Source: Chloroflexota bacterium | Lineage (GTDB): Bacteria; Chloroflexota; Dehalococcoidia; Bin125 | Reading direction: 5' to 3' | Assembly: GCA_028875225.1 (NCBI GenBank) | Contig: JAPPFB010000017.1 | Coordinates: 145,920-209,919, forward strand | Length of the DNA: 64,000 bases | In this document: positions 6,854-23,810 of the stretch, piece by piece | Numbering within the stretch: the first letter of the stretch is position 1 | Layout: every line of letters starts with the position of its first letter | Program-made: the position numbers and the translations under genes | Notes under the pieces: model-generated | The model's input: the letters and a program-made list of their open reading frames with translations, nothing else | What the model was told of the DNA's origin: nothing | Databases searched by the model: none

Positions 6854-8068
6854 TCAGCCCAACGCGCCACTGGCGGCCAGTTCCGCCAACTCGTCGTCCG
6901 ACAGTCCCAGCTCTTGCAACACTTCGTGCGTGTGCTGTCCGGTCTTCGGAGCCGGCCCGCGCGGACCAACATCCGCACCTGCGATGTCGAAAGGTGTGTT
7001 CAGGGTCCGGAACGTTCCTTCTGGACCATCGATCTCTGACCAGGCGTTCATTGCTTCCATCTGGGGATCACAAATCACTTCCGGCAATTCTGCAACCGGC
7101 GCCCAGGTCAGCGCTTCGGCATTGAGCAGCGGCGTCCATTCCGCCAGCGTCTTCGAACTGAACACCTCTCGCATGGCGCCGGTCAGTTCGGCCGTGTGCT
7201 CCATTCGCCCCACCAATGACGCAAATCGCTCGCTACTGCTCCACTCCGGCTGTTCCAACGCGCGGCACAGCGGCTGCCAGTACCGGTCTCCAGTGGGCAT
7301 CACCAACATCAGCCAACGACCGTCGGCGGTCTCGTACGAGTTGAACATCGGATTGCCGGGCTGCACCCGATCGATGCGCGGCGGCTGATCTTCGAGAATG
7401 AGCGAAGTGGCGACATCGGCGCCGATTGTCCAGGCCCCCGTCCGCTGCAGCGTGACCTCAACGAACTGGCCCTCGTCGGTGAGGTCGCGCAGCCGCAATG
7501 CCGCCAGGGTCCCGGAGAGCAGGTTGAGCGCTGTCGCGTGGTCGCCCTGTCCCGGCCGGCAGGGCATCGGTGGACCGTCCGGTTCGCCGATCAGACTCAT
7601 GATCCCCGATCGCGACCAGAACGCCGAATAGTCGAAGGCGGTCATCGCGTTGTCGGGTCCGCGTGTGCCATAGCCGGTGAGCACCACGTAGATCAGCCGT
7701 GGATTGACCGCTTGTAGTGAATCCCAGGACAGGTCATAGCGGGCGATGCGCGGCGCCGTCAGGTTCGTGACGAAGATGTCGGCTTCGGCGACCATGCGCT
7801 TGACCACGTCGCTCGCGCCCGGCGCTTCCAACGACAGCGCCACGCCGCGCTTGCCTCGATTGTCCAGTTCGTAGGCCGCGTCGACGTCGGTGTCCGGATC
7901 GAAGTCGGGCTTGCGTCCGCGCATCAGGGTGGTACGCCAGGCGTCGCCGACGGGGTTCTCGATCTTGATCACATCGGCGCCGAGGTCGGCCATCAGCGCC
8001 GCCGCCGACGGCGCGGCGAGCCAGTTCGCGGCTTCGATCACACGAATTCCCTCAAGCGGCGCAACCAT
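6854..8068 (-). CDS. CaiB/BaiF family CoA transferase
   Basis: A protein of 404 residues, a normal single-domain class III CoA transferase. It starts MVAPLEGIRVIEAANW; ATG 8068 is preceded by AAGGGGG. Motifs are GADVIKIENPVGD, the VVLTGYGTRGPD loop and GDHATALNLLSGTLAALRLRD. The residue aligned with the catalytic Asp of formyl-CoA transferase is Arg (TLQRTG, about residue 209), so activity by the usual aspartyl-CoA route is doubtful. The downstream acyl-CoA dehydrogenase gene follows at 31 bases. The divergent lyase gene starts 61 bases away, so the two share a promoter region. Confidence 0.87.
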   Translation of the reverse strand: MVAPLEGIRVIEAANWLAAPSAAALMADLGADVIKIENPVGDAWRTTLMRGRKPDFDPDTDVDAAYELDNRGKRGVALSLEAPGASDVVKRMVAEADIFVTNLTAPRIARYDLSWDSLQAVNPRLIYVVLTGYGTRGPDNAMTAFDYSAFWSRSGIMSLIGEPDGPPMPCRPGQGDHATALNLLSGTLAALRLRDLTDEGQFVEVTLQRTGAWTIGADVATSLILEDQPPRIDRVQPGNPMFNSYETADGRWLMLVMPTGDRYWQPLCRALEQPEWSSSERFASLVGRMEHTAELTGAMREVFSSKTLAEWTPLLNAEALTWAPVAELPEVICDPQMEAMNAWSEIDGPEGTFRTLNTPFDIAGADVGPRGPAPKTGQHTHEVLQELGLSDDELAELAASGALG

Positions 8069-8128
8069 ACCGTCCCCCTTCGTTAGCTTGCAGTCCGATC
8101 CTACCGGCCGAGCGAGAAGGAGCCGACG

Positions 8129-9493
8129 ATGCAGCACCGACCGACCGCCGCCCGAGTCCCAGATCCCGGAATCCGTCAGTTGTTCACGCGCGAAGCGCGT
8201 TGGCAGGCCTGGCTCGACGTTGAAGCGGCGCTGGCACGCGCCGAGGCCGAACTCGACATGATCCCCGCGGACGCCGCAGTTGAGATTGCCAACCATTGCC
8301 AGCTCGAGTTGCTCGACGTTGACAACATCGAGGCCGGCCTTGCCGTGACGGCGCATCCACTGGTTCCGTTGATCTGGGAACTCGACCGGATACTCGGCGG
8401 CGAGGTCGGAGGTTATGTCCATTGGGGCGCGACGACGCAGAACATCACCCAGACGGGCGACATCCTCCAGCTACGGCAGGCGCATTCGATCATCCTGACC
8501 CAGATCGGACAGGTGCTGTCCTTGCTCGCCCCGCTCGCCGAGCGACACGCCGACGACCCATGCGCCGGCCGGACGCACGGGCAGCACGCGGTCCCGTCCA
8601 CATTCGGCTACAAGGTCGGCGCCTGGATCGACGAGCTCTGCCGGCACGTCGAACGGCTGCACGACGCCGAACCGCGCATCTTCGTCGCCATGCTGGGCGG
8701 CGCCGCGGGCAGCCTGGCCTCGTTCGGCGAGCCCGGGCTGGACGTGCAGGCCCGCATGGCGACACACCTGGATCTCTTGCCCATGCCAGTGCCGGGACGC
8801 ACGAGTCACGATCACCATGCCGAGTACGCCGCGATCCTCGCCATGCTCGCCGCGACCTGCCGCAAAATCGCCGATGAGACCTACACGTTGATGAAGCCCG
8901 AGTTCGGCGAGATCGAGGAACCGGTCCCGCCGGGCACGGTCGGCAGCAGCACGATGCCACAGAAGCGCAACCCCAAGCTCTCGCAGGACATCCGCGCCGC
9001 GGCGGCCCAGGTCACGACCTTGTTCCCGCTCGCGCTCGACGCGATGCGCACCGAGCACGAAGCGGACGGCTCCACCAGCGTCATGGTCGAGCGCGTCGTT
9101 CAGGGTTCCATCGAGCTGGTCGGAGACATCCTGGCGCGGATGATCCTGCTGTTCGACGGCATCGACGTCCGACCCGAACGGATGCGGGCGAATCTCGACC
9201 TCTCAGGAGGACTGATCATAAGCGAGCGAATCATGCTCGCCCTGGGCGAGAAAATGGGCCGCCAGCGCGCCCATGATGTCGTCTACGAACACGCCCAGGA
9301 CGCCGCCGTGCAGGACGTCGCATTCCGCGATCTGCTGATCGCCGATCAGGAGGTTCGCAGTCACCTATCTGAGGCCGAACTTGACCAGTTGCTCGATCCC
9401 GCGACCTACACCGGCGCCTGCGCTGAGATCGCGCGTACGCAAGCCCAGCGCGCGCGTCGGGTCGCCGAACGCCTAGACTCCGCCCAGAACTGA
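8129..9493 (+). CDS. Fumarase/aspartase superfamily lyase (adenylosuccinate lyase / 3-carboxymuconate cycloisomerase type)
   Basis: A protein of 454 residues. It shows the superfamily signature GSSTMPQKRNPK (about residues 270-282), the substrate-binding loop HWGATTQNITQTGD and AGRTHGQHAVPSTFGYK. Members cleave C-N or C-O bonds with release of fumarate, or catalyse the related 3-carboxy-cis,cis-muconate lactonisation. The C-terminal part (PATYTGACAEIARTQ) resembles the PcaB/PurB-like branch. Its place among CoA transferase, EthD and luciferase-like genes argues for a catabolic role rather than purine synthesis. ATG 8129 has AAGGAG upstream. It heads a probable operon with the next two genes. 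Confidence 0.85.
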   Translation: MQHRPTAARVPDPGIRQLFTREARWQAWLDVEAALARAEAELDMIPADAAVEIANHCQLELLDVDNIEAGLAVTAHPLVPLIWELDRILGGEVGGYVHWGATTQNITQTGDILQLRQAHSIILTQIGQVLSLLAPLAERHADDPCAGRTHGQHAVPSTFGYKVGAWIDELCRHVERLHDAEPRIFVAMLGGAAGSLASFGEPGLDVQARMATHLDLLPMPVPGRTSHDHHAEYAAILAMLAATCRKIADETYTLMKPEFGEIEEPVPPGTVGSSTMPQKRNPKLSQDIRAAAAQVTTLFPLALDAMRTEHEADGSTSVMVERVVQGSIELVGDILARMILLFDGIDVRPERMRANLDLSGGLIISERIMLALGEKMGRQRAHDVVYEHAQDAAVQDVAFRDLLIADQEVRSHLSEAELDQLLDPATYTGACAEIARTQAQRARRVAERLDSAQN

Positions 9494-9521
9494 CCAGTCG
9501 AACGCGAGTGGAAGCGAGCGC

Positions 9522-10208
9522 ATGATGTTGAAATGGATCGTCCCGGTCACGAAGAAGGAAGGTGTCGACCGCGAGACCTTCTTCGAGTTCTGGCAATGCG
9601 TCCACGCGCCGCACGTCGCCAACCTCGCCAAGCCGCTTCGTTACGCCGTCACCTTCTTTGACGGTGCCGGTTCACTCGGTGGACCGCCGGCAACCGATGA
9701 CATGCCCTATGACGGCGTCGCCGAGCTCTGGTTCCGCGATTTCGAACATGTCAACGAGGCGTTCGGCGAACACCGTGGCGCGTTGCGCACCATCGACGGC
9801 TTCAGTGAACTGATCGAGCCGACCACCGACGGCATGTTCACGACCGAGAACATCATCGTCGACTCCGAGACAAGTGAAAATGCGTGCAAGTGGGTCGCGT
9901 TCGTCAAGAAGGGCGAGGGCGTCACGCGAGAAGAACTGTTCGCGGCCTGGAGCGACGGCCATTCGCCCAGAGTCGCCAACAACATCGCCCGCGCCGACGG
10001 CCGCTGCCTGCGCTACACGACATCGCACGCCAACCAGGGAGGCGAAGACGGGCCATGGGACGGCGTCGCCGAGCTCTGGTACACCGACGCCGAGGCAGCC
10101 CTCAATGGCCTGCCGCCATCTGACGAACCGGGCGATCCATTCCCACCGCTGATCGACGCCGCCGCAACGGTCATTCTGCAGGGCCGAGAAATCGTGGTCG
10201 TCTCGTAG
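9522..10208 (+). CDS. Tandem EthD-domain protein
   Basis: A protein of 228 residues made of two EthD-like ferredoxin-fold domains. The first (about 1-105) has KWIVPVTKKEGVDRETFFEFW and YDGVAELWFRD. The second (about 120-225) repeats the pattern with KWVAFVKKGEGVTREELFAAW and WDGVAELWYTD. EthD proteins are small alpha+beta barrel proteins found with ether- or aromatic-degrading enzymes, but their biochemical role is poorly known. The gene lies 28 bases after the lyase and 34 bases before a luciferase-like oxidoreductase, all on the same strand, so it is most likely part of one degradation operon. Confidence 0.82.
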   Translation: MMLKWIVPVTKKEGVDRETFFEFWQCVHAPHVANLAKPLRYAVTFFDGAGSLGGPPATDDMPYDGVAELWFRDFEHVNEAFGEHRGALRTIDGFSELIEPTTDGMFTTENIIVDSETSENACKWVAFVKKGEGVTREELFAAWSDGHSPRVANNIARADGRCLRYTTSHANQGGEDGPWDGVAELWYTDAEAALNGLPPSDEPGDPFPPLIDAAATVILQGREIVVVS

Positions 10209-16996: not shown

Positions 16997-18496
16997 TCAG
17001 GAGTCAGGGGCGACGTAAGCGCCTGCTTCGTACCAGCCGGAAGCGAACAACAAGCCCTCGTGGCGCACGACCCAGGTGTGCTTCTGCTCCTGCTCGCCGC
17101 TGTCGGGATTGATGAAGACGTAGCTCACCCAACCGCGGTCTTCGATTGCGATGAACTCTTCGCGGAAGTGGCGGCCAGTGACATCGGGTCCGCCATCGAG
17201 CACGTTCTCACCGAGTGGCAGGAACGGATGCGCAAGCCGGGTGCCGTCGAGCTCGTAGATGCTCACATACCACTCGCCGTCCACGCTCTCCGGAGAGTTG
17301 TGATACTCGATGACCGCGTCGCGGCCATCAGCGTCGTAGCGATCGATGGCGTCCTGCACCAGGGCCCGGGCGTAGCTGGCCGGATCCTGCTCAGCGAGGT
17401 TGTAGTTACGGTCGTACCAACCAGAGCCGAAGAGCAGGTCTCCCTGGCGCACGATCCAGCTGTGTTTGCGCTGGTATTGCAGTTCGGCGTCAGGATTGGG
17501 GAAGACGTACGAGATCCAGCCGTTGGTCTCGATCGACAGCGTGTCGGCGGTGTAGTCGTAACCGGTCACGTCGACCCCGGTGCCATGCAGGTTGCTGCCC
17601 AGCCAGCCCGGTCGGTCGGCGCGAGCGCCGTTGACCAGGCGCGTGCCGTCCACGTGATGGATGAAGAGGTACCACTGCCCGTCAATGCTCTGTCGTGAGT
17701 TGTAATACTCGAACGTCGCCTCCCGGCCGAGCACGCGGTACATCTCCAACGCTCGCTCAACGTATGACTGCGTGAACGCTCCCGGCGCGTGAACCTTCGA
17801 GGGCGCGCTCTCAGACCAGCCGGAGCCGAAGGTCATGCCGTCGTATCGGACTACCCACGAGTGCTTGATTTCGGCACCGCCGTCGGACGGGTTGTTGAAC
17901 TGGTAGTCGACCCAGGCGCCGTCGACGGTGGCTGCGGCGACCACCATCAATCCGGCCGGGTATCCGTCGGGTCCGTTGACCTCCGCAGCGGTCAGGCCCA
18001 CCAACTCCTGGTTCTCGTGAGCCACAACGACGTCATTCTCGTCCATGATGAACATGTACCACTGGCGGTCGATGCTCTCCACGGTGTTGTAGTAGACCAA
18101 TGTGGCTTCACGACCATCGCGCTCGTACCGAGCGATTGCTTGCTCGACGAACCATTGGGTGTACGCGGCAGGATCCGAGATGTCGGGAGTCGCCGCCGGG
18201 ACGCTGACGGCAAACGGATTGCTGGAGTACCACGTGCCGGGCTCCGCGGGAACGGGCAGGAACCGAGCCTCGGGCGAGTGGGGCGTCCAATCGCTGCCGC
18301 CGACCCTGGACTGGGCGCGCACTTCGACCTGACCGGACTCCGTCTCCCGCGCCTGCACGCGCACCTCGATCTCACCCTGGCTCTGGCTGTCGGAGGTGGC
18401 GAAATCGAATGGAAGGACGCCGCTGACCACCACCAGCGCGAAGACTGCAAGAAGAACCAACGCCCCGGCAGTCAGGGCACGTATCCGACGTGACAT
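16997..18496 (-). CDS. Secreted or membrane-anchored protein with three Cache-like repeats
   Basis: A protein of 499 residues. An N-terminal signal or anchor segment (GALVLLAVFALVVVSGVLPF) is followed by a short module (about 40-100, EVRVQARETESGQVEVRAQ ... EARFLPVP) that recurs in two other secreted proteins of this window. Three repeats of about 115-125 residues follow, each with a YxxDGREA helix, YYNSxESIDGQWYxFI, an ENGVDVTG-like loop, WVSYxFxNP and KHSWVVRxxxLLFGSGWY. These are single-Cache-like ligand-binding domains, normally sensors outside the membrane. No signalling domain follows, so it may bind ligand for a partner. Function inferred only from fold. Confidence 0.78.
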   Translation of the reverse strand: MSRRIRALTAGALVLLAVFALVVVSGVLPFDFATSDSQSQGEIEVRVQARETESGQVEVRAQSRVGGSDWTPHSPEARFLPVPAEPGTWYSSNPFAVSVPAATPDISDPAAYTQWFVEQAIARYERDGREATLVYYNTVESIDRQWYMFIMDENDVVVAHENQELVGLTAAEVNGPDGYPAGLMVVAAATVDGAWVDYQFNNPSDGGAEIKHSWVVRYDGMTFGSGWSESAPSKVHAPGAFTQSYVERALEMYRVLGREATFEYYNSRQSIDGQWYLFIHHVDGTRLVNGARADRPGWLGSNLHGTGVDVTGYDYTADTLSIETNGWISYVFPNPDAELQYQRKHSWIVRQGDLLFGSGWYDRNYNLAEQDPASYARALVQDAIDRYDADGRDAVIEYHNSPESVDGEWYVSIYELDGTRLAHPFLPLGENVLDGGPDVTGRHFREEFIAIEDRGWVSYVFINPDSGEQEQKHTWVVRHEGLLFASGWYEAGAYVAPDS

Positions 18497-18895: not shown

Positions 18896-18970
18896 CCCCC
18901 CGTAGCTCAGGGGATAGAGCACCGGTTTCCTAAACCGCGCGCGGAGGTTCGAATCCTCCCGGGGGGACCA
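18896..18970 (+). tRNA. tRNA-Arg (CCT)
   Basis: A cloverleaf can be drawn: acceptor CCCCCCG pairing with CGGGGGG, D arm GCTC...GAGC, anticodon loop TTCCTAA with anticodon CCT, T arm GGAGG-TTCGAAT-CCTCC, discriminator A and encoded CCA. One mismatch (C-C) closes the top of the anticodon stem. It reads AGG. The sequence just downstream holds a truncated reading frame, an IS21 remnant and the sterol-type genes, so its 3' end may have served as an integration site. Confidence 0.93.
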
Positions 18971-19187
18971 GGCACACGTAGAGCTGGACGAAATCGCAGC
19001 GCAGGTGCGTGATGCGGACCGGGAAATTTCAGATCCGTCTGCGCACGTCGTTCGATTCGAGCGTGGCCGCGAAGCGGTCAACCTGCGCACCTTCGCCGGA
19101 ACAATGGACATGCTGGATGGGGATCTCGACGCGCTGAAGGCGCAACACGCGCGGCTGTCTCGCGTTGTGGTCACCCCGACCCCATAG
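18971..19187 (+). pseudogene. Truncated reading frame directly after tRNA-Arg
   Basis: An open frame runs from the tRNA 3' end to a TAG at 19187. It encodes a protein-like helical segment (LDEIAAQVRDADREISD ... FAGTMDMLDGDLDALKAQHARL). A GTG at 19005 could start a 60-residue protein, but there is no Shine-Dalgarno site. It looks like the 3' end of a larger gene whose 5' part was lost when something inserted or was deleted at the tRNA. I do not recognise the family; it could also be chance coding potential. Confidence 0.3.
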
Positions 19188-19346
19188 CCCTCCTCCTGCG
19201 ACTGCTGGCCCAGGCGTGTCGCCGGCTGCCGGTGTTTCGGCGGGGTTCGCTCCCAATCAGTCGCCGAGCAGCTCGTTCAGCTGCGGCTACATCGCATCGA
19301 GGACCGGGGGATATCGAAGTCTCCAGTCACGCCTAACAAGCACCGG

Positions 19347-19469
19347 TCACTCCGGGCACCGCCTCACCGTGTTGCGGCTGAGCTCGAGCTCGCGCGCCAT
19401 CCGCCGCCGGTTGTAGCCCTCGACCACCACTTCATTCCGCAACCCACGCACATCCTGCATCCGAAACAT
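19347..19469 (-). pseudogene. IS21-family transposase (IstA) N-terminal remnant
   Basis: A 40-codon fragment on the reverse strand carrying the N-terminal helix-turn-helix of IstA-type transposases (VVVEGYNRRRMARELELSR then NTVRR). It stops right after the HTH, whereas intact IstA is about 400-500 residues. The rest of the element and IstB are absent. Its presence between tRNA-Arg and the sterol-type genes marks past mobile-element activity here. Confidence 0.6.
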
Positions 19470-19742
19470 CCTGTCGGCCGGCGACCGGCCTGCCACCGGA
19501 CCTGATGTTCAGCGCCCACAGGTGGATCGCTTCTCGGGCGATGACCAGATCAGCTTCGAGGCAATGAGTGCAGCGAAGCCGTAGCCGGAGCACTTGTCCG
19601 GTGTGGTACCACCTTGGTTCCAGGCTCCGCGGCTACCTATCTCGCGCCAATCAGGAGGGCGCACATTCTGACATTGACACCTCTCTCGCAATGATGTCGG
19701 AAGGCCCGATTGGCCAACATTGGATCAATCGTCTGATATCAA
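19470..19742. other. Intergenic stretch without a recognised gene
   Basis: Together with 19188-19346 this forms about 430 bases around the IS21 remnant in which I see no convincing coding sequence. It is probably decayed mobile-element DNA; the short reading frames here lack start signals and family motifs. Confidence 0.4.
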
Positions 19743-19854: not shown

Positions 19855-20871
19855 ATGGCAAGCAGCGGAGAGCAAACAGGCAATCCTCGCCAGGCGCTGC
19901 ACGAGTATCTCCAGATTCGGCAACTCAGTGAATCGCAGGACGACGCCATTCGCATCGAGGAGCTGCCGAAGCTGGTCAACCGCTTCTGGGATGCCGTGAC
20001 CCGCTTTTTCGAGTTCGGCTGGGGCGCCAGCTTCCACTTTTCGCCGCGCCGACCCGGGGAGACTCTGGCCGAGGCGCAACGGCGCCACCATCTGCAAGTC
20101 GCGGAACTTCTGCGCCTGAAACCGAACATGGATGTCGCTGACATCGGTTGCGGCGTCGGGGGGCCGATGATCGGCATCGCCAGGGCGAGCGGGGCGAACA
20201 TCACCGGCATCAACCTCAATGCGTTTCAGATCGAGCGAGGCAAACGACGCGTCTCGCAGGCGGGTCTGGATGAGAACTGCCGGTTTCTGCACGCCAACTT
20301 TATGGATGTGCCTCTGCAGGACGAGACGTTCGACGCCATGTATGGCTTCGAAGCGACTTGCCACGCTCCGAACAAGCTGCCACTGTTCCGGGAGCTGTAC
20401 CGCCTGCTCAAGCCAGGAGGCGAGATAGTCAATGTCGATTGGTGCCTGACCGATCGATTCGACGCCAGCGATGCGCGTCATCAGCGCATCCGCCGAGGTA
20501 TCGAGACCCACAACGGCACGGGCACCCTCTACACGATCGAGCAGCAAGTCGACGCGTTCCGGCGCGCAGGCTTCGAGATCATCCAGGCGTTCGATCAGCA
20601 CGGGCACCACGGCAACGCGCAGCTGCCCTGGTACATCGCGCTGCAGGGGCGCGATTTCTCATTCCGCACGTGGGCTCGCAGTCCGGCCGGCCGAAGACTC
20701 ACCGAGGCGGTGACGAAGTTCCTCGAGTTTGTCCGAATCGCGCCAGAAGGAACAAGTGAGATTGCCGCATTCCTGAATGCCGCCGCCGATGACCTGATCG
20801 AATCGGGGGAGCTGGAGATCTTCACTCCGGACTTCCTGGTTCACGTCCGCAAGCCCGCGGCGGTCGAGTGA
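19855..20871 (+). CDS. Sterol C-24 methyltransferase (SMT/ERG6) family homologue
   Basis: A protein of 338 residues with the signature motifs of sterol 24-C-methyltransferases in order: sterol-binding region I FGWGASFHFSPR (about 54-65), SAM motif VADIGCGVGGPM (94-105), GFEATCHAPNK (164-174) and the WCLTDRFD segment (196-203), equivalent to the EWCMTDxYD block of ERG6. Known SMTs transfer a methyl group from SAM to the sterol side-chain C-24/C-28 double bond. The acidic Y/FEATCHAP region, diagnostic against generic methyltransferases, is kept. It lies 6 bases upstream of a DAF-36-like Rieske oxygenase, so the pair probably modifies one sterol or sterol-like lipid. No sterol cyclase is in the window, so the substrate may be external. 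Confidence 0.85.
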   Translation: MASSGEQTGNPRQALHEYLQIRQLSESQDDAIRIEELPKLVNRFWDAVTRFFEFGWGASFHFSPRRPGETLAEAQRRHHLQVAELLRLKPNMDVADIGCGVGGPMIGIARASGANITGINLNAFQIERGKRRVSQAGLDENCRFLHANFMDVPLQDETFDAMYGFEATCHAPNKLPLFRELYRLLKPGGEIVNVDWCLTDRFDASDARHQRIRRGIETHNGTGTLYTIEQQVDAFRRAGFEIIQAFDQHGHHGNAQLPWYIALQGRDFSFRTWARSPAGRRLTEAVTKFLEFVRIAPEGTSEIAAFLNAAADDLIESGELEIFTPDFLVHVRKPAAVE

Positions 20872-20877
20872 TGCGCC

Positions 20878-21939
20878 ATGTGGAGTGTCATGTCCCGCCG
20901 CGAGGAACGTCCCTCACTGCTTGATGCCCGGCGCGCGGACAGCTACCCCCATCCGTACCCCACAGGCTGGTATCGCCTTGCGTCGGCGGACTCCCTCCGC
21001 CCCGGCGAGATTCGCTACCTCGAGTGCCTGGGCAAACAATTCGTGCTCTGGCGAGAGCGGGAGAGCGGTGAGATTCGCCTGATGGACGCGTTCTGTCCGC
21101 ACCTGGGCGCGAATCTCGCCCGAGGCCGTGTTCGCGGCGACTGCATCGAGTGCCCGTTTCACCACTGGCAATTCGAAGGCGGTGGCCGCGTCAAGCACGT
21201 TCCTTACAGCGAGCATCCACCGGGCCGAGTCCTGGCATCGCCGTATCCGCTAACCGATGTCCACGGCGACCTGTACCTGTTCCATCGCTGCGACGGATCG
21301 CCGGAGGACATGGACGAACCGCCTCCGTATGAGGTTCCCCGAATTCCGGAAGTGGACAGCGGACAGTTTGTTGCCCGCGGACGGCACAGTATCGGTCGAG
21401 TAGGAATGCACATCATCGAGATCGCCGAAAACGGCGTCGACTCCGCTCATTTTCAGCCGCTTCATGGACGATTTCGAGTGCCGTGGACGCAGATTCCCAT
21501 ACCTGGGGTAGAGATCGTGCACACGGCGGATTGGTCGCTCGATCCTGGGCATCCGTGGGTGTCGTATGCGGACGACAGCGCAATCCTGCGGGTGTTGGGA
21601 CGCCAGGTCGGTGAGTTCGAAGCGCGTGTCCGGGTCTCCTACGTTGGTCCCGGCAGCCTGCTGTTCTTCCGCTTCGATCTTGCGGGGCGGGGAGAGATCG
21701 CGATGTATCAGACGTTTCTACCAGTGAGCCCGCTCGAACAGCAGGTAGATCTACGATGGTTCGCCGACCGAAGGCTCCCCAGGCTGTTGGTCTGGTACAT
21801 CATCGGCAACTGGACGTCTCAATTCGTCCAGGACATTGAGGTATGGGAGAACAAGGTTCACGCGCATCAACCCAAGCTCTGCCGAGATGATGGTCCGATC
21901 TACGAAATGCGCCGCTGGTATCAGCAGTTTCTCCCGTAG
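20878..21939 (+). CDS. Rieske non-heme iron oxygenase, DAF-36/Neverland (cholesterol 7-desaturase)-like
   Basis: A protein of 353 residues. Rieske [2Fe-2S] ligands are C73-P-H75 and C92-P-F-H95; the mononuclear iron site is D188-x2-H191-x4-H196 (ENGVDSAHFQPLHG). Features that point to the DAF-36/Neverland group, rather than ring-hydroxylating dioxygenases, are FCPHLGANLARG, CIECPFHHWQF and the C-terminal QDIEVWENK then EMRRWYQQF. Characterised relatives introduce the C7-8 double bond into cholesterol; actinobacterial KshA is a more distant steroid hydroxylase. An alternative ATG at 20890 has GGAG just upstream. No reductase gene is adjacent. Confidence 0.85.
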   Translation: MWSVMSRREERPSLLDARRADSYPHPYPTGWYRLASADSLRPGEIRYLECLGKQFVLWRERESGEIRLMDAFCPHLGANLARGRVRGDCIECPFHHWQFEGGGRVKHVPYSEHPPGRVLASPYPLTDVHGDLYLFHRCDGSPEDMDEPPPYEVPRIPEVDSGQFVARGRHSIGRVGMHIIEIAENGVDSAHFQPLHGRFRVPWTQIPIPGVEIVHTADWSLDPGHPWVSYADDSAILRVLGRQVGEFEARVRVSYVGPGSLLFFRFDLAGRGEIAMYQTFLPVSPLEQQVDLRWFADRRLPRLLVWYIIGNWTSQFVQDIEVWENKVHAHQPKLCRDDGPIYEMRRWYQQFLP

Positions 21940-22053: not shown

Positions 22054-23772
22054 CTAGTCGGAAGGCGACCAGGAGAGGTTGATCTGGAACGACGTCGACG
22101 CCGACGCGACCTCTTCGCCGTCCACGGTGGCGGTGACGTCCAGGCTGTAGGTGCCGGCGGTGCAGCCGCTGGCCAGGTTCACCGTGCGTTCGATCGACTC
22201 GCCGAGCTCTGGGATGTCGTCCTCGTTGATCGTGTTGTCGGCCCCCATGTTGGCGCCTTCGCAACTGTCGCTGTCGTCGCCGTCGCTAGTGACGTCCGCC
22301 CTCCAGGTTAGGTCCCCCTCGTCGTTGGGAATGTTCCAGAACGTCAGCGTGGCGCCCAGCGCGTTGTTGACCGTGCCGAAGTCAATCTCGATCAGTGGAT
22401 CCGTCCCGTCGACGGCGTGATCCGAGTCGACCGCGAGCCCGTCGTGGTCGTAGTGCGCCTGATGCGTAACCTGCGCCCACCTGGTGACGTTGTGCAGGAC
22501 CTCGAAACGATCCTCAATCTCGTTGCCGTCTTCGTCCAGCAGCGTCTCGCCGTCGGGATTCACGAACTGTGTGCGGGCGTCGGTGCTGTTCGCTGGTACC
22601 CCGACGCCGCCGGTGCCCTTGTCGGTCGGGCCGACCTCGTAGACGAAGATCACGGTTGCGCCTTCGCTCGAATCGTTCGCGTCACGGGTCAGTTCGGCGT
22701 CATAGACGGCCCATCTCGTGCTATCGGCTTGGGCTACCTGGGTCCCTCCGATGTTCCCGCCGCCAATTGCGTTCCCTGAGTCGCTCAGCGCAATCTTCAG
22801 GCCCGGTGCGCCGTGCACCTTGACCCTGGCGTCCAGGGTCAACTCGAAGACGATCTGCTCGCGGAAGCGGTACGCGTCGCCGTCGGCGGGTTCCGAGGTG
22901 ATCTCGATGTCGGTGATCCGCGGCAGTCCGTCAATCTTGTGAGCCGAGAGGTTCGTCTGCCGTGAGTAGCCGCCGATAGACACGCTGGTCGATGTCCCGG
23001 CGTAGGTGAGGCCGGGCAAGCCAAGGTTCGATTCCCGCTGGGTGATGCTCAGACCATTGGTGTCAAGGTCGTACCGCTTGACCGTGTACGCGTAGACAAT
23101 CGTGTCTGTTCCGCTGCCGCTCGAGTATCTGGCCGTGCGGAAGTAGTTGGAGCTGCGCGAGTACCCCGAGGTCCAATCGGGCCCGCCGACCTCGATGAGC
23201 ACGTAGGCAGAGTTCGACGCGTCGACCTCGTTGTCCAGCGTCATGGTCACCTGGATTGTCTCGCCGAGGGCGTAGACATCGCCGGACTCGGGGGTTGACG
23301 TGACCTCGAGGCTCTCGACGTTCACGTCGTCGTCGTCCAGGATCAGCACCTGGCAGGTAGTGATCGCGTTGTTGTGGTCGTTAATCCACTTGATTCTGAA
23401 CGACTCGTCGCCCTCGATCCGCGTGTCCTGCGTGGTGTCGATATCGACTTCCGTGCTATTTCCGTTGTGATCAACCTCGGTGCTGCCATGAGTAAAGTCG
23501 TCCGCCTGTGCGAACCAGGTTTCCGTCCTCACCGTTCCCTTGATCGGCTTGGTGGCGTTGCTGCCTCTGGTCAGCGTGACCGTGACCGTGTCGCCCTCAT
23601 CCACGGTTCCTGGACAGGACAGCGAGACATTGTGCGCCGAGCTGCCGTGGTTCTCATCGGCCCGCGCGGTGACGGCGAGCAAGGAGGGCACCAGCAGCGC
23701 CAGTGCCGCGGCTACCGCCAACCACGCTGCTCGATGCCGACGCAACAAACTCAGCGATTCTCGCGTGCACAT
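22054..23772 (-). CDS. Secreted Calx-beta / beta-sandwich repeat protein
   Basis: A protein of 572 residues starting at ATG 23772 (GGAG at good spacing) with a signal peptide (AWLAVAAALALLVPSLLAVTARA). A Calx-beta-like domain follows (SLSCPGTVDEGDTVTVTLTR ... IEGDESFRIKW). Then come two repeats of the VTSTPESGDVYALGETIQV type, the same repeat that fills the 11-repeat protein at 26.4 kb. The rest is beta-rich with a Cys pair (SCEGANMG ... ASGCTAGTY). Expected outside the cell. No cell-wall sorting motif is seen. Confidence 0.75.
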   Translation of the reverse strand: MCTRESLSLLRRHRAAWLAVAAALALLVPSLLAVTARADENHGSSAHNVSLSCPGTVDEGDTVTVTLTRGSNATKPIKGTVRTETWFAQADDFTHGSTEVDHNGNSTEVDIDTTQDTRIEGDESFRIKWINDHNNAITTCQVLILDDDDVNVESLEVTSTPESGDVYALGETIQVTMTLDNEVDASNSAYVLIEVGGPDWTSGYSRSSNYFRTARYSSGSGTDTIVYAYTVKRYDLDTNGLSITQRESNLGLPGLTYAGTSTSVSIGGYSRQTNLSAHKIDGLPRITDIEITSEPADGDAYRFREQIVFELTLDARVKVHGAPGLKIALSDSGNAIGGGNIGGTQVAQADSTRWAVYDAELTRDANDSSEGATVIFVYEVGPTDKGTGGVGVPANSTDARTQFVNPDGETLLDEDGNEIEDRFEVLHNVTRWAQVTHQAHYDHDGLAVDSDHAVDGTDPLIEIDFGTVNNALGATLTFWNIPNDEGDLTWRADVTSDGDDSDSCEGANMGADNTINEDDIPELGESIERTVNLASGCTAGTYSLDVTATVDGEEVASASTSFQINLSWSPSD

Positions 23773-23810
23773 TGGTTTCTCCGTAACTGGCCGACTCAAG
23801 CGATGCGGCC

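Follow-up and report, generated by a model that had tools for sequence, protein, structure and literature searches.

A conserved gene pair for a sterol methyltransferase-family protein and a Rieske oxygenase as a candidate sterol-tailoring operon in a Chloroflexota lineage with sponge symbionts

A Chloroflexota genome that carries its own sterol biosynthesis cluster also encodes, on another contig, a compact pair consisting of a sterol C-24 methyltransferase (SMT) family gene and a Rieske oxygenase gene of the KshA/Neverland type. The pair lies in a stretch of 64,000 nucleotides, which was analyzed as a whole and which we call the window. We lean toward the view that it is an accessory two-gene operon that tailors self-made sterols in a Chloroflexota lineage with sponge symbionts, the SMT acting at C-24 and the Rieske oxygenase on the sterol nucleus. 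From the evidence below we infer sterol to be the substrate of both enzymes and the bacterium to be its maker; the assignment of the Rieske oxygenase to C-7 is put forward more tentatively.

The SMT gene occupies positions 19855–20871 (plus strand, 338 aa) and the Rieske gene positions 20878–21939 (plus strand, 353 aa), with a 6-nt spacer between them (20872–20877). Both genes are intact and under purifying selection, and the spacing and motifs given by an earlier sequence-only reading of this DNA were found as quoted. The flanking genes at 16997–18496 and 22054–23799 lie on the opposite strand, and the pair is thus an isolated two-gene unit. A tRNA-Arg(CCT) gene is located 0.9 kb upstream (18896–18970, plus strand), and a short frame on the minus strand (19347–19508) contains an HTH-like stretch, RRMARELELSRNTV, that by eye makes it a possible remnant of an IS21-type transposase. 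The region 18896–19508 may have served as an insertion site for the locus.

Assignment of the first protein to the SMT family holds. The profile search identified a Sterol_MT_C domain (PF08498; E = 1.8e-19, 70 bits against a cutoff of 21.7) at aa 270–334 (20662–20856), after a SAM-dependent methyltransferase domain (Methyltransf_11) whose SAM-binding motif, VADIGCGVGGP (aa 94–104, 20134–20166), is also supported by the paralogue alignment. The signature set (Y/F)EFGWGxSFHF, EATCHAP and WCLTDxFD is present as FGWGASFHF (aa 54–62, 20014–20040), EATCHAP (aa 166–172, 20350–20370) and WCLTDRFD (aa 196–203, 20440–20463), all on the plus strand. The core FGWG..HF is common to all four SMT-like proteins of this genome, most pair-type relatives read EAVCHAP at the second motif, and FYEFGWGxSFHF and WCLTD occur also in relatives linked to clusters of steroid genes (CSGs). 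The window SMT is 67, 60 and 34% identical to the other three SMT-like proteins. In a tree built from the SMTs of this family of genomes alone, without characterized SMT sequences, the pair-type, cluster-adjacent, third and NUO-linked types separate, each with support. The pair-type SMTs sit on a long stem, from which a shifted substrate or product is possible. In the window genome the most divergent SMT-like gene (34% identity; L022:9244–10320, contig C27) neighbors what by eye is an operon for NADH dehydrogenase, and the gene is also present in G013, G016, G017, G019, G020, G022 and G025. It occurs in relatives without an oxidosqualene cyclase as well, and its substrate may be something other than a sterol.

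The second protein matches the Rieske domain (PF00355, E = 1.3e-20) and the KshA_C domain (PF19298, E = 7.7e-24). Its AF2 model has a pLDDT of 90, and the six best PDB matches are all KshA (TM 0.69–0.75), with which it shares 24–29% identity. The [2Fe-2S] ligands C73-x-H75-x16-C92-x2-H95 (21094–21162), the non-heme iron motif E184-x3-D188-x2-H191-x4-H196 (21427–21465) and the third iron ligand D319 (21832–21834), all encoded on the plus strand, are invariant in an alignment of 16 proteins; D319 corresponds to the ligand Asp of the KshA motif QDxEIWxNK, which is Asp304 in M. tuberculosis KshA. The pattern at E184 is the same in CeNVD, begins with D in KshA5 and is replaced by H-x3-H in SdmA. 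The sequence-only reading was correct in recognizing a steroid-type Rieske oxygenase, but the iron motifs that it cited are found in KshA too. Similarly, the WENK and RRWYQQF tail that it regarded as a mark of DAF-36/Neverland is not diagnostic, as a solved KshA ends alike (QDVEIWKNK...DGPVYQLRRWYQQF). DAF-36/Neverland membership of the window protein therefore stays a likeness of motif, unproven. Profiles, fold and tree rejected two further candidate readings, an aromatic dioxygenase for the second protein and a generic methyltransferase for the first.

In a tree of 55 proteins, which held no eukaryotic DAF-36/Neverland sequences, the window Rieske protein belongs to a clade of 16 rows with full support (100/100) and a stem of 1.3. 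This clade comprises Chloroflexota, Plesiocystis pacifica, Enhygromyxa salina, Sandaracinus NAT131 and one unplaced proteobacterial MAG; its Chloroflexota carry sterol clusters and its myxobacteria are sterol makers. All cultured and sequenced Nannocystaceae have a cyclase (PMC12004948). KshA5 falls in another supported clade (98/97) and SdmA in a separate supported group. The nearest named relatives are Chloroflexota MAGs, one of them titled Dehalococcoidia, and the E. salina relative is 49% identical. A search of plasmids for close relatives returned distant KshA-like matches alone (≤31% identity). Within the order, the pair-type Rieske gene is present in 10 of 13 genomes with a sterol cluster and in none of the 7 cluster-free genomes (Fisher p = 0.0015, for genomes that are phylogenetically non-independent); the cluster genomes without it are G011, G016 and G020. 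A further KshA-like Rieske gene (L009, G000:C12:61553; also L073, L086, L149 and L154), whose product is about 25–29% identical to the window protein, is kept across the genus and forms a supported clade of its own.

The window genome contains a second SMT-Rieske pair on contig C4, with an SMT 67% and a Rieske protein 70% identical to those of the window. The genes of this pair overlap by 4 nt, and an overlap of a few nucleotides is also seen in the relatives L026 and L030. Adjacent SMT and Rieske genes recur in L026, L027, L028 and L030 and in G009, G012, G017, G018 and G019 (G012 and L027 denote one genome, as do G019 and L026), so that five or more other genomes of the genus carry the pair. 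The window and C4 copies have a dN/dS of about 0.16–0.2, a value obtained with dS near saturation for these paralogues. The paralogous pair, this ratio and the recurring adjacency together argue that the pair is not a chance arrangement, and the earlier proposal of a two-gene sterol-tailoring unit is supported. The close relative G010 has a decayed pair (L029:9608–11034, G010:C22), in which the SMT is a C-terminal fragment and the Rieske gene, with an internal TAG, is split by a frame disruption; its product is 86% identical to the window protein. These remains and the existence of the C4 pair would be expected if the window copy were a redundant duplicate in the course of being lost and had no distinct role. 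We consider this improbable given that the window frames are open, every ligand is kept and dN/dS relative to C4 is low, while the EATCHAP variant and the long branch hint at divergence rather than decay.

The window genome is a 3.22-Mb MAG, 96% complete, of a Chloroflexota bacterium labeled Dehalococcoidia, and is close to sponge-derived genomes. The names RHO3, IRC2 and SB0664 suggest that these relatives come from sponges, and the pair carrier L027 (isolate jk18x34bins.13) is named in the style seen for Ircinia MAGs in PMC9531527; the window bacterium presumably lives in a sponge as well. Contig C24 of its genome carries, on one strand and in this order, genes for SdmB (296 bits), SdmA (410 bits), an ERG4/ERG24 reductase (237 bits), CYP51 (closest solved chain a CYP51, E = 3e-105) and a fusion of squalene epoxidase and oxidosqualene cyclase (SE-OSC). 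The fusion protein has 1141 aa (L017:10245–13670; G000:C24:22248–25670, minus strand) and joins a PF08491 epoxidase to a cyclase that scores 745 bits with TIGR03463, under the cutoff of 851, and 515 bits with TIGR01787, over the cutoff. The cyclase reads WPVTDCTAE, and a valine at this site is generally taken to mark lanosterol rather than cycloartenol synthases. A key valine is used likewise in PMC7074536. Contig C27 encodes HpnC, HpnD and HpnE for squalene synthesis together with a squalene-hopene cyclase. Nine relatives have the complete SE-OSC fusion (73–85% identity) and two more have part of it, and this conservation argues against a binning artifact as the origin of the cluster. The SE-OSC gene has an SMT gene as its direct neighbor in several relatives. 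The apparent lack of a cyclase in G019 carries no weight, since G004, a record of the same MAG, has a run of 7000 N next to the cluster. The sequence-only reading had stated that a local sterol cyclase is absent, which is true of the window and fails for the genome: the search that it had suggested for squalene epoxidase and oxidosqualene cyclase found both, fused, on C24, in a cluster conserved in the genus. We do not present the fusion as new, as MsbE has already been published (PMC7074536). Next to the cluster, frames resembling the Cas3 helicase and Cse proteins of CRISPR-Cas systems, together with a serine recombinase, were recognized by eye (L017:600–6708 and 7859–9553).

Based on these genes, the C24 cluster would convert squalene into a lanosterol-type sterol through the fused SE-OSC, remove the C-14 methyl group through CYP51 and the ERG24-type reductase, and remove the C-4 methyl groups through SdmA and SdmB. 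The SMT would methylate the side chain at C-24 with SAM as donor, and the Rieske oxygenase would oxidize the nucleus with O2 and with electrons supplied by an unlinked reductase. The likeliest site may be C-7, by C7-C8 desaturation or allylic hydroxylation, because an EBP isomerase and a C-5 desaturase (FA_hydroxylase) gave no match in a profile search of the window genome. The Δ8 to Δ7 isomerase ERG2 likewise had no match in 20 genomes, although the controls had none either. A bolder version of this hypothesis, which we regard as possible yet doubtful, is that an SMT and a Rieske C-7 desaturase produce 24-alkyl Δ7 or Δ5,7 sterols from self-made sterol without EBP/ERG2 and ERG3, that the desaturase represents an unrecognized bacterial branch of the KshA/Neverland group that includes proteins of sterol-making myxobacteria, and that the products feed the Δ5,7 pool of Ircinia and other dictyoceratid sponges. 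It is known that KshA and Neverland group with each other within the Rieske oxygenases (PMC4064121), that SMTs from bacterial sponge symbionts accept desmosterol as a substrate in vitro (PMC10070321) and that dictyoceratid sponges, including Ircinia, are rich in Δ5,7 sterols, many of them 24-alkylated in one quantified species (PMC3039464). If the desaturase reading is true, sponge-associated bacteria would contribute to these sterols, although the sponge itself could be their maker.

Several observations count against the sterol-tailoring hypothesis or its details. E. salina makes cholesterol and has homologues of nearly all canonical cholesterol steps (PMC10202945), yet keeps the Rieske gene, so the role of the enzyme there may differ. 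A Neverland-type reaction in a pathway that ends at Δ8 sterols would yield an unusual product. The Rieske gene also comes without an identified reductase partner, and three cluster genomes lack it while the G010 pair is broken.

The most serious rival holds that the Rieske oxygenase is a hydroxylase of another position, either C-25 of the side chain or another ring carbon, and that the pair makes 24-alkylated oxysterols. We consider this possible, as most Rieske oxygenases, KshA included, are hydroxylases (PMC4064121), a side-chain methyltransferase would be a fitting partner for a side-chain oxidase, and E. salina, which has the 49%-identical relative, makes 25-hydroxycholesterol and other hydroxysterols by unassigned enzymes (PMC10202945). 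On the other hand, KshA and Neverland target the nucleus rather than the side chain, and with about 14–17 Rieske matches apiece, E. salina and P. pacifica offer many other candidates. It is unlikely that the protein is KshA itself, the 3-ketosteroid 9-alpha-hydroxylase of steroid degradation, although the KshA_C domain, the closest solved structures, the ligand pattern and the tail agree with such a role: identity is low, the clades are distinct, the neighbor is an SMT gene with no kshB, kstD or hsa gene seen in the immediate neighborhood, and the carriers have sterol biosynthesis clusters.

The sequence-only reading had also proposed that the pair may modify host or dietary sterol. This receives some backing from the location of the pair and the cyclase cluster on different contigs and from a Chlamydiae MAG that has a functional SMT and no other sterol genes (PMC10070321). 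The de novo cluster in the genome, conserved across the genus, and the absence of the Rieske gene from all 7 cluster-free genomes of the order disfavor the proposal, to which we give little credence. Finally, the Rieske protein matches SdmA weakly (40.5 bits with the equivalog profile NF052579, compared with 410 for the SdmA-like protein of the genome, neither reaching the cutoff of 600), as might a second C-4 methyl oxidase. This identity was rejected as highly implausible based on the separate clade, the motif (H-x4-H versus H-x3-H in SdmA), the C-terminal domain (KshA_C versus VanA_C) and the coexistence of a true SdmA, which at about 400 bits is present in 6 of 6 tested genomes that carry the pair-type Rieske gene.

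The sterol-tailoring hypothesis can be placed among known systems. Earlier publications cover bacterial SMTs (PMC10070321), steroid clusters from sponges, those of Dehalococcoidia among them (PMC9531527), and the epoxidase-cyclase fusion (PMC7074536). Brown et al. 2023 described SMTs of uncultured sponge-symbiont bacteria, often with sterol genes including sdmA and sdmB, several of which are functional in vitro and three of which give 24-isopropyl sterols; their main text includes neither a KshA/Neverland-type Rieske partner nor Chloroflexota (PMC10070321). Passages of Kelly et al. 2022 describe Ircinia CSGs, in Dehalococcoidia too, with the order ERG24-CYP51-LSS and, at the 3′ end, an SMT that is frequently encoded on the other strand (PMC9531527). 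This layout is shared by the C24 cluster and by the clusters of G015, G016 and G020; the two genes of the SMT-Rieske pair are located outside the CSG and do not appear in the CSG description of these passages, which mention scattered sterol genes in general. The msb cluster of a gammaproteobacterial symbiont of Melophlus similarly combines the SE-OSC fusion MsbE, a sterol reductase, CYP51, an SdmA-like Rieske protein, an NAD(P)-dependent oxidoreductase and an SMT, but belongs to a different phylum, and its Rieske protein MsbB was likened to a C-4 demethylase (PMC7074536). DAF-36/Neverland cholesterol 7,8-desaturases such as CeNVD share C-x-H-x16-17-C-x2-H, E/D-x3-D-x2-H-x4-H and a sterol-linked context, but are eukaryotic, and KshA has these motifs as well; CeNVD and KshA are 30% identical (PMC7609953), approximately as the window protein and KshA are. 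KshA (PDB 4qdc, 4qdf and 2zyl) resembles the window protein in fold, domain, ligands and tail and differs in clade, identity and its catabolic rather than biosynthetic context. SdmA, a 4-methylsterol monooxygenase, is likewise a Rieske oxygenase of bacterial sterol biosynthesis, but is a separate gene in the same genomes. Consistent with the earlier claim that no bacterial operon with this pair had been described, a search of the article text of openly licensed papers turned up neither the SMT-Rieske pair nor the Rieske clade.

Side-chain-alkylated sterols serve as fossil evidence for early animals and algae, and the bacterial contribution to them is debated. A conserved bacterial operon for C-24 methylation and likely nuclear oxidation, present in de novo sterol makers from a lineage with sponge symbionts, would be a concrete, testable source of alkylated sterols, and the pair may help to make side-chain-alkylated sterols that are otherwise credited to sponges. 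The Rieske oxygenase is also a candidate for the unassigned oxidations of sterols in myxobacteria and for the ring-B step that is missing in these Chloroflexota. Additional sterol genes occur beside those discussed above. A second ERG4/ERG24-family reductase gene lies outside the cluster (L062, G000:C17:180717–181769) and is a candidate C-24(28), C-7 or other sterol reductase; a similar second reductase gene is found near the sterol cluster in L156. In G015, a second SdmB-like reductase gene (L160:14004–15071) lies just past the SMT gene in the sterol cluster. It may be compared with E. salina, in which complete C-4 demethylation depends on a second reductase.
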